From Deltaproteobacteria bacterium (GTDB lineage: Bacteria; Desulfobacterota; Desulfobulbia; Desulfobulbales; Desulfobulbaceae): DNA of 52,910 nucleotides. The stretch's first letter is position 1, and every line of letters begins with the position of its first letter. A model generated the notes under the pieces. That model worked only from the letters and a program-made list of their open reading frames with translations, was not told where the DNA came from and did no database searches. Location of the stretch: the NCBI GenBank assembly GCA_024280455.1, contig JAJRQC010000025.1:1-52910 (forward strand), read 5' to 3'. Shown here in pieces: positions 1,451-52,910 of this stretch. A program made the position numbers and the translations under genes.

Positions 1451-1573
1451 CCTTTCCCCCCCTGCCCTCTTGATGACCTCATTCCCCCGCCATCGACGGC
1501 GTAAAGGTTGTAATTCATTGTATCTCATACAGCCCAAACAAACTTTTGGTCTTTTTGAAAAACCATTTTTATT

Positions 1574-1742
1574 GTCTGTGTCGTAGATAGCGGAGACTTG
1601 CGGTAGTGATGTGGCAATGTCCACATGACGAGCAAACTCGTGAGACTCCGAGAATCCACGAAACCGACGGCGGAGAGGCCGTATCCTCTTGTAATCCTGT
1701 ACTGGAAAAATGGCGGCGGTTTTGACTTTTTATGCGTCCATC
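1574..1742. mobile_element. MITE-like element, copy 1 (169 bp, TSD TTTATT)
   Basis: The element is bounded on both sides by the 6-bp direct repeat TTTATT (1568-1573 and 1743-1748). Its left end begins GTCTGTGTCGTAGATAGCG and its right end resembles TTTTTACGAGTTCATC of the other copies. An internal segment shared almost base for base with copy 3 holds two adjacent hairpins: ATGTGG/CCACAT (1609-1626) and ACGAG/CTCGT (1628-1641). Copy 2 lacks this insert. No coding potential. The gap 1344-1899 otherwise holds only the terminator and the leader of the next gene. Confidence 0.75.
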
Positions 1743-7971: not shown

Positions 7972-8072
7972 GTCGGTGTTGTAAAAAGCCACGAAACCGA
8001 CGGTGGGAAGGTTATAAATTCTTGTAATTCCATGCAGTGCAAATGGCGGTTTTGCCTTTTTACGAGTTCATC
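7972..8072. mobile_element. MITE-like element, copy 2 (101 bp, TSD ACAATT)
   Basis: ACAATT occurs directly on both sides (7966-7971 and 8073-8078). The left end reads GTCGGTGTTGTAAAAAGCC, and the reverse complement of the right end reads GATGAACTCGTAAAAAGGC, sharing a GTAAAAAG core. This is the short form, without the structured insert of copies 1 and 3. The rest of the gap 7923-8212 has no recognised feature beyond an uncertain 22-codon frame at 8106. Confidence 0.8.
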
Positions 8073-29792: not shown

Positions 29793-30146
29793 CGTTCACC
29801 AGGTCACTGGTAAACGTTTACAAGTATGGGTTTATCCGAAAATCGCCCACGAAGTGATACCGCATCAGGCTATTTTCATCCTTGGTTGTGGCTGTGACGT
29901 TAAAAATCCTGGTCCAGCCATGCTGGTTTATCCGAAAATAGCCCACGAAGTGATGTCGTATCAGGCTATTTTCATCCTTGGTTGTGGCTGTGACCTGTAT
30001 AATATGGTCCAGCCATGCTGGTTTATCCGAAAATCGCCCATGAAGATGGAACTTTTAGGCTATTTTCATGGTTCGTAGTGGCTGTGACGTTAAAAATCTG
30101 GTCCAGCCATGCTGGTTTATCAATCTTAGTTGGTGTCTGGTGAACG
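29793..30146. repeat. Tandem array of 94-96 bp hairpin repeats
   Basis: Three head-to-tail units begin GGTTTATCCG at 29829, 29925 and 30020 (96, 95 and 94 bp); a fourth is cut off after GGTTTAT at 30114. Each can form a stem GAAAATMGCC / GGCTATTTTC around a variable loop, and a second stem TGGCTG / CAGCCA around another variable segment. The array is bracketed by 10-bp inverted repeats CGTTCACCAG (29793-29802) and CTGGTGAACG (30137-30146). Single and reversed copies occur at 38601 and 52684. Frames crossing the repeats are not genes. It separates the ATPase gene from psiE and may act on their shared transcript. Confidence 0.88.
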
Positions 30147-31712: not shown

Positions 31713-31879
31713 GTCGGTGTGGTAGATAGCGAAGACTTCCGGTAGTGATGTGGCAATGTCCACATGACGAGCGAACTCGTGAGACTCCGAGAATCCTCGC
31801 CACCGACGGCGGAAAGGTTATAAATTTCTTGTATTTTCGTACAGTGCAAATAGCTTTTTTGCCTTTTAACGAGTCCATC
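31713..31879. mobile_element. MITE-like element, copy 3 (about 167 bp)
   Basis: Begins GTCGGTGTGGTAGATAGCG and ends AACGAGTCCATC. It carries the same internal two-hairpin insert as copy 1 (GTAGTGATGTGGCAATGTCC, then CACATGACGAGC...ACTCGT). AGCATT precedes it (31707-31712) and TGCATT lies 5 bases after the expected end (31885-31890), a possible imperfect target duplication. It separates the two usp genes in a gap of 296 bases that otherwise holds only the leader of the second gene. Confidence 0.7.
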
Positions 31880-37759: not shown

Positions 37760-38030
37760 GTCGATACATCGAGCTTGCATTTCTCACAAAAGATACGACC
37801 CATTTAAGCGCCTGCCAATTTATGAGAATTCTCGTTCAGTGATGCAGCTCGAAATCTTCGCTTACCTGATCGTACCAGACCATACAAGCATAACCTTTGG
37901 AACATATTAAAGAAAACAATAGGTTACGGCCTAGCCAGCATTTCAAGGACAATCTATTTCTCGTAACATCTATACAGCAATAAAAAACCATTAAAACAAG
38001 ATCATATAGCGATGTTACGCTTTCATATAA

Positions 38031-38163
38031 GATGGCCTCGTAAAAAGTCGGAATGAACATTTTTTCGTCATCCCCGCGCAGGCGGGGATCCAATAATTCC
38101 GACACGTTACACTTGTCTTCCTTTGCCGAAATGATGACTAGGACGACTTTTTACGAGTTCATC
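38031..38163. mobile_element. MITE-like element, copy 4 (133 bp, TSD ATATAA)
   Basis: Terminal inverted repeats GATGGCCTCGTAAAAAGTCG (38031-38050) and the complement of CGACTTTTTACGAGTTCATC (38144-38163) differ at 2 of 20 positions. ATATAA flanks both sides (38025-38030 and 38164-38169). The interior contains the REP-like CGTCATCCCCGCGCAGGCGG unit also found near 13486. The right end is the same as in copies 1-3, the left end and interior are different. Confidence 0.85.
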
Positions 38164-38346
38164 ATATAATACATATAATATGTATATATAAAAGAGGAAG
38201 ATAAGGCAAATGAAAAAAGTTCCCATTACCCATCTCGATGACATATCCGCATAAGACGCCTGAACAGACAGTGCAGATCAAAAGGTCGCAGTGATAATTA
38301 AAATTTTTTCTTTAAGCTCATACTAAGCTCATACCTGTCCGACATT

Positions 38347-38571: not shown

Positions 38572-38600
38572 TTACTGAGGATTGCGTCAGTAGATTGTCA

Positions 38601-38694
38601 TCTTTATCCGAAAATCGCCCACGAAGTACGCTGATTCAGGCTATTTTCATCCTTGGTTGTGGCTGTGACGTTAAAAATCCGGCCCAGCCATGCT
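38601..38694. repeat. Solitary 94-bp hairpin repeat unit
   Basis: Same orientation and scaffold as the array at 29829 (CGAAAATCGCCCACGAAG, GGCTATTTTCATCCTTGG, TGTGGCTGTGACG, CAGCCATGCTGG), with its own version of the first variable loop (TACGCTGATTCA). Confidence 0.88.
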
Positions 38695-38738
38695 GGTTTT
38701 TCCAGAATATGAAAGGGGCAACCATCGATTCCGGCAAA

Positions 38739-52542: not shown

Positions 52543-52683
52543 TTAACAGTACCGATTGGACAAAACATGTGTCATTGCAATGGCTCGCACCAGACGGATT
52601 ATTTCCTGCAACAACTGGTTTCCAAGCCTCTCCAGTCCTTTAATCAGGGATATCGGTATATATTTACATCACGCATTCAGTCA

Positions 52684-52910
52684 GATAAACCAGCATGGCT
52701 GGACCAGATTATACAGGTCACAGCCACAACCAACGATGAAAATAGCCTAAAAAGTTCCATCTTTGAGGGCGATTTTCGGATAAACCAGCATGGCTGGACC
52801 AGATTGTACAGGTCACAGCCACAACAAACTATGAAAATAGCCCGGATCGGCATCACTTCGTGGGCGATTTTCGGATAAACCAGCATGGCTGGACCAGGAT
52901 TTTTAACGTC
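52684..52910. repeat. Reversed tandem hairpin repeats at the window edge
   Basis: Two full units of 95 bp (52684-52778 and 52779-52873) and a 37-bp partial unit run off the edge, in reverse orientation to the array at 29829. The first carries the GATGGAACTTTTTAGG variant of the loop (as in unit 3 at 30020), the second a GTGATGCCGATCCG variant. Both carry the CTGTAYAATC form of the second variable segment. Confidence 0.9.

Follow-up and report, generated by a model that had tools for sequence, protein, structure and literature searches.

MITE-A copies and the 65-nt insert

The window (the whole stretch of DNA analyzed here, 52,910 nt) is contig 28 of a 4.15-Mb genome in 173 contigs. It contains copies of a repeat that we designated MITE-A, two of which bear a 65-nt insert (Table 1). 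MITE-A is non-coding, has imperfect TIRs (TGTCGGTGTCGTAAAAAG / TGATGGACTCGTAAAAAG) and target duplications, and is present in many dispersed copies, which are the features we tested for a MITE. Matching flanks of 4-9 bases, commonly 6, were found in 22 of the 32 complete copies, and 48 copies could be classed genome-wide. Copies 1 and 3 are 80% identical over the whole elements. A previous sequence-only reading of this DNA had counted four copies in the window. Its fourth copy corresponds either to a decayed body fragment (~1483-1565) or to an element at 38026-38168, in which the MITE-A TIR (GATGGCCTCGTAAAAAGTC / GACTTTTTACGAGTTCATC) surrounds a CGTCATCCCCGCG repeat. A plasmid search found no MITE-A.

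Table 1. Coordinates of MITE-A copies and of the parts of the insert in the window
Feature	Position	Strand	Remarks
Decayed MITE-A body fragment	1483-1565	+	Directly upstream of copy 1; nhmmer E 1.2e-7
Left target duplication, copy 1	1568-1573	+	TTTATT; perfect 6-base match to right duplication at 1743-1748
MITE-A copy 1	1574-1742	+	Ends GTCTGTGTCGTA ... TATGCGTCCATC
65-nt composite insert, copy 1	1586-1650	+	Between TCGTA and AGAATCC; aligned with empty and shorter copies
Unit A, copy 1	1586-1601	+	GATAGCGGAGACTTGC; 16-nt variant of dispersed 17-nt unit GATAAGCGNAGACTTCG
Unit B, copy 1	1602-1650	+	GGTA...AGCAAACTCGTGAGACTCCG; 24 nt if uninterrupted; tandem to unit A
Unit C, copy 1	1606-1630	+	GTGATGTGGCAATGTCCACATGACG; 25 nt; nested in unit B between GGTA and AGCG
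Outer stem 3' half, copy 1	1651-1668	+	AGAATCCACGAAACCGAC
MITE-A copy 2	7972-8072	+	Naturally empty site TTGTA-AAAAGCC; 6-nt duplication ACAATT at both flanks
MITE-A copy 3	31713-31879	+	80% identical to copy 1
65-nt composite insert, copy 3	31725-31789	+	Unit C at 31745-31769

The sequence-only reading had also described a nearly identical structured segment that is shared by copies 1 and 3, is missing from copy 2 and holds two hairpins inside an outer stem. Most of this description held. The two inserts differ at 3 of 65 positions, both hairpins (ATGTGG/CCACAT, which sits in unit C, and ACGAG/CTCGT) are present and belong to units C and B, and copy 2 keeps the outer stem around a short loop, AAAAAGCC. 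The outer stem was correctly given as GTCGGT/ACCGAC for copy 3 and most other copies, but copy 1 has GTCTGT. When the 48 MITE-A copies were lined up, a single insertion site was observed, TCGTA^AAAAGCC, which lies within the loop of the hairpin GTCGGTGTCGT-AAAAAGCC-ACGAAACCGAC at the left end of the element.

The occupants of this site fall into modular size classes. Nothing is inserted in 4 of the 48 copies; 11 have unit A alone (17 nt, GATAAGCGTAGACTTCG), with one further copy carrying a 16-nt variant; 4 have a 24-nt form (GATAGCGAGTGTGGCGAGACTTCG); and 5 have both in tandem (17 + 24, 41 nt). The largest class (65 nt, 21 copies) is the 41-nt form plus 25 nt nested in its second unit between GGTA and AGCG, and in two copies the insert is ~73 nt, its first unit being of the 24-nt type, followed by the rest. 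Unit C is missing from the 41-nt class and present in the 65-nt class, and unit B is uninterrupted in the 41-nt copies L019, L026/L030, L033, L038 and L066. The units share the ends G(A/G)TA(A)GCG...AGACTYCG.

In agreement with the earlier claim that the structured part is better conserved than its flanks, mean pairwise identity among 20 full long-insert copies was 0.886 for the insert (taken over the last 42 nt of the long insert) versus 0.739 for the MITE-A body, a difference of 0.147 (bootstrap 0.090-0.204). The insert class is decoupled from the body: both body subfamilies contain classes 0, 17, 41 and 65, and 18 class changes were counted on the body tree, which is poorly resolved, versus a minimum of 4. 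This independence indicates that classes were repeatedly gained or exchanged among copies. Because empty copies, such as copy 2, also have target duplications, the insert is dispensable for MITE-A movement. We infer that recent spread or exchange, and not RNA function, accounts for the stronger conservation of the insert relative to the body.

The 17-nt unit occurs in unrelated contexts across Desulfobulbales

The analysis was based on searches of the genome and on individual stretches of it. There are about 100-150 occurrences of the 17-nt unit GATAAGCGNAGACTTCG in the genome, compared with 0-2 for reversed-pattern controls. The 16-mer TAAGCGTAGACTTCGA was found at 150 genomic places when up to 2 mismatches were allowed (2 for the reversed control), and the gapped end pattern GATAAGCGN(1-31)AGACTYCG at 106 places (0 for the control). 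The contexts of the unit form 26 flank clusters over many genomes and include MITE-A, other MITEs, a 95-nt repeat B (two sites), a hairpin repeat C (three sites), a CGTCATTCCCGCG repeat and single contexts. Unit C was seen in MITE-A only. Repeat B (~95 nt, CAGCATGGCTGGACC...) is also arrayed in the window, at 29829-30121, 38600-38703 and 52681-52910, and elsewhere in the genome two of its internal sites are occupied by 17- and 27-nt units.

The preferred target is CA^, with A at position -1 in 24 and C at position -2 in 21 of the 26 flank clusters. Both bases lie outside the search patterns, and the A at +1, which the patterns partly force, was left out as evidence. Empty counterparts of occupied sites were found, and in each case the joined flanks aligned without gaps: at 59/60 identical positions in repeat B, 59/59 between L128 and L120 (same MAG), 60/60 between two copies in Desulfobulbus rhabdoformis (L160), 56/60 between L174 and L142, and 44/49 between L191 and L119. 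Filled sites are longer by exactly 17 nt, and the target is not duplicated. The MITE-A site does lie in a hairpin loop, but hairpin-loop targeting was rejected as a general rule, as the junction was in a loop for 8 of the 26 contexts versus 46 of 151 control sites.

Units also occur in head-to-tail arrays with periods of 17, 24 and 13 nt. Repeat C has 0 (L072), 1, 2, 3, 4 or 6 of them at its CCA^GTGC site, with 17-nt spacing. Six 17-nt units lie head-to-tail at G000:C150:57648-57747 and three 24-nt units at C113:1815-1884. The longer members (22-27 nt) have common ends and differing middles, and one relative has an inverted 17-nt unit inside a longer unit (G010:C201:15095-15135).

The 17-nt unit is present in every one of the 8 genomes of the genus, with copy numbers from 4 to 164 under the strict pattern. 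Across Desulfobulbales it is frequent but patchy, and matches are lacking in 24 of 57 relatives, so that the unit is unlikely to derive from a conserved host RNA or gene. Outside the order, among 297 genomes of the phylum, matches were at control level, with three in one genome; beyond the phylum, the distribution was sampled only. Among the matches listed from an exact 18-mer scan of species genomes, almost all belonged to Desulfobulbaceae, Desulfocapsa, Desulfopila, Desulforhopalus, Desulfobulbus and similar organisms. The cultured Desulfobulbus rhabdoformis DSM 8777 has 224 pattern matches. The 65-nt insert, searched in 57 genomes, was missing from 56 relatives, except for a 24-nt stub in one sister genome.

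Explanations for the insert and for the spread of its units

For the insert, the sequence-only reading had suggested a choice between a functional RNA and a second nested element. The latter half agrees with the modular dispersed units described above, whereas the former found no support in fold, covariation or Rfam. If the insert were a functional structured or cis-regulatory RNA carried by the MITE, its hairpins would be kept by selection. Its conservation above the body and the hairpins that are intact in most copies (helix 3 paired in 95%, helix 4 in 89%) would be consistent with this. However, the insert region folds no better than dinucleotide shuffles (z-score -0.51; 63 of 200 shuffles fold equally well), and base pairs are often broken by substitutions. 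Covariation, which had been named as the check, did not exceed that of shuffles: in 22 aligned copies and with the structure proposed by the reader, 2 pairs had two-sided change versus 1.1 +/- 1.0, and the RNAalifold covariation term was unfavourable (+0.53). Neither the covarying helices nor the stability above shuffles expected of a structured non-coding RNA was therefore found. No Rfam family matched the insert at gathering or relaxed thresholds; the reading had recognized no riboswitch or ribozyme family. The insert is also lineage-specific, and the size series and the copies without an insert are difficult to reconcile with such a role. A functional RNA is thus largely refuted and, in our view, highly improbable. 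More generally, modular and well-conserved "structured inserts" of MITEs can be stacked micro-repeats instead of RNAs.

Very probably, the insert arose when very small repeat units, dispersed and mobile-like, piled up at a single MITE site. The stack would consist of a 16/17-nt unit of the GATAAGCGNAGACTTCG type, an adjacent 24-nt unit with the same end pattern and a 25-nt hairpin unit nested in the second, with the left terminal hairpin of a ~100-nt MITE hosting all of them in its loop. Units would insert precisely, preferably after CA (in MITE-A after TA), and without target duplication; the MITE would then spread the stack by its own transposition, with mostly 6-nt duplications, and MITE copies would exchange insert states. 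The units themselves are most likely micro-elements of the small dispersed repeat (SDR) type, copied into CA^ sites by a putative trans-acting process, and we infer such a process rather than rare unrelated events. It is possible, but we propose this only tentatively, that the 17-nt sequence is a mobile element across a whole bacterial order which inserts after CA without target duplication and depends on neither a known transposase nor a RAYT. Several points weigh against the stack of mobile-like units: the tested links to Y1/RAYT and reverse transcriptase genes identified no mobilizing gene for the units, unit C is confined to MITE-A, slippage could produce the arrays, host repeats carry much of the unit copy number, the body tree is of low resolution, and mobility is read from sequence comparison.

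If units spread only via replication slippage, template switching or gene conversion between repeats with short homology, arrays with the observed periods and an insert class decoupled from the MITE body would be expected. However, base-precise insertions were found across many genomes in flank families that share nothing beyond CA^A, and we consider this explanation rather unlikely. Alternatively, the 17-nt units might be what remains of a larger transposon with the ends GATAAGCG...AGACTYCG, either as excision footprints or as deletion relics. Common ends around a varying middle (17-27 nt) are indeed a property of internally deleted elements, but no element of larger size turned up, 17 nt is by far the most frequent unit length among the examined loci, the two ends do not form inverted repeats and target duplication is absent. 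This origin appears improbable.

A similarly low probability applies to mobilization of the units, as REP-like sequences, by a RAYT (Y1/HuH) transposase. All 18 relatives with at least 4 unit copies have one or more Y1 genes, and the common form of the unit contains GTAG. Y1 genes, however, are also found in 19 of the 24 relatives with zero copies, and no unit lies within the 1-3.7 kb examined around five of the eleven Y1 hits in the own genome. The GT[AG]G foot plus hairpin of REP/RAYT systems was not seen either, as the base in question is variable (GNAG) and the 17-mer has neither palindrome nor hairpin. A hand count with an assumed origin revealed no replication-strand bias among the places listed for one complete chromosome (about 29:21). 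Neither Y1 transposase counts (rho 0.35) nor reverse-transcriptase counts (0.34) tracked unit copy number any better than genome size did (0.33), and both partners were rejected on these correlations and on gene neighbourhood. At one locus (L203, G000:C26:44500-49500), Group II intron D1-D4 RNA and a broken reverse transcriptase adjoin a repeat C with four tandem 17-nt units.

Relation to known short repeats

ERIC is a MITE family in which some copies have extra sequence at a fixed site. MITE-A resembles ERIC and other MITEs with internal insertions in this respect, but the units that make up its extra sequence occur outside the MITE as well. For the 17-nt units, the nearest known kind is the cyanobacterial SDR. 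SDR1-8 of Nostoc and relatives are dispersed units of 21-27 nt that occur inside minitransposons and nested in one another, and SDR4-6 reportedly have a common secondary structure with compensatory changes. Similarly, the Desulfobulbales units are very short (less than ~30 nt) and dispersed, occur above chance in unrelated contexts, insert precisely with empty sites, lie in minitransposons and nest in one another. However, Nostoc belongs to another phylum, the common Desulfobulbales unit is shorter (17 nt) and, unlike Nostoc SDRs, often forms head-to-tail arrays. By eye, the 17-27-nt units have no consistent stem, in contrast to the structured SDR4-6, and we know of no sequence shared between the two groups. 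The targets also differ, CA^ in Desulfobulbales and HIP1 in Nostoc, where, as cited in PMC4390886, SDR5 is inserted precisely between defined HIP1 bases.

REP/REPIN sequences with RAYT (PMC3116915, PMC6006769) are likewise short, non-coding dispersed repeats of high copy number, but the Desulfobulbales units lack a hairpin with the 5' GT[AG]G foot, doublets and a link to Y1 genes. Neither the 17-nt unit sequence nor a report of such repeats in Desulfobulbales was found in the open literature that was searched. The main puzzle is how a 17-base sequence gets copied through genomes, and the mode of dispersal of 17-27-nt sequences has been a long-standing question ever since cyanobacterial SDRs became known (Elhai et al. 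2008, Genome Res 18:1484). The Desulfobulbales units make it testable, as they form a second system that spans an order, has a defined target with exact empty sites, and is present in the cultured D. rhabdoformis. Two 17-nt units each were also observed in two IMG/VR viral contigs (L258 and L259), which may reflect phage carriage or host contamination.
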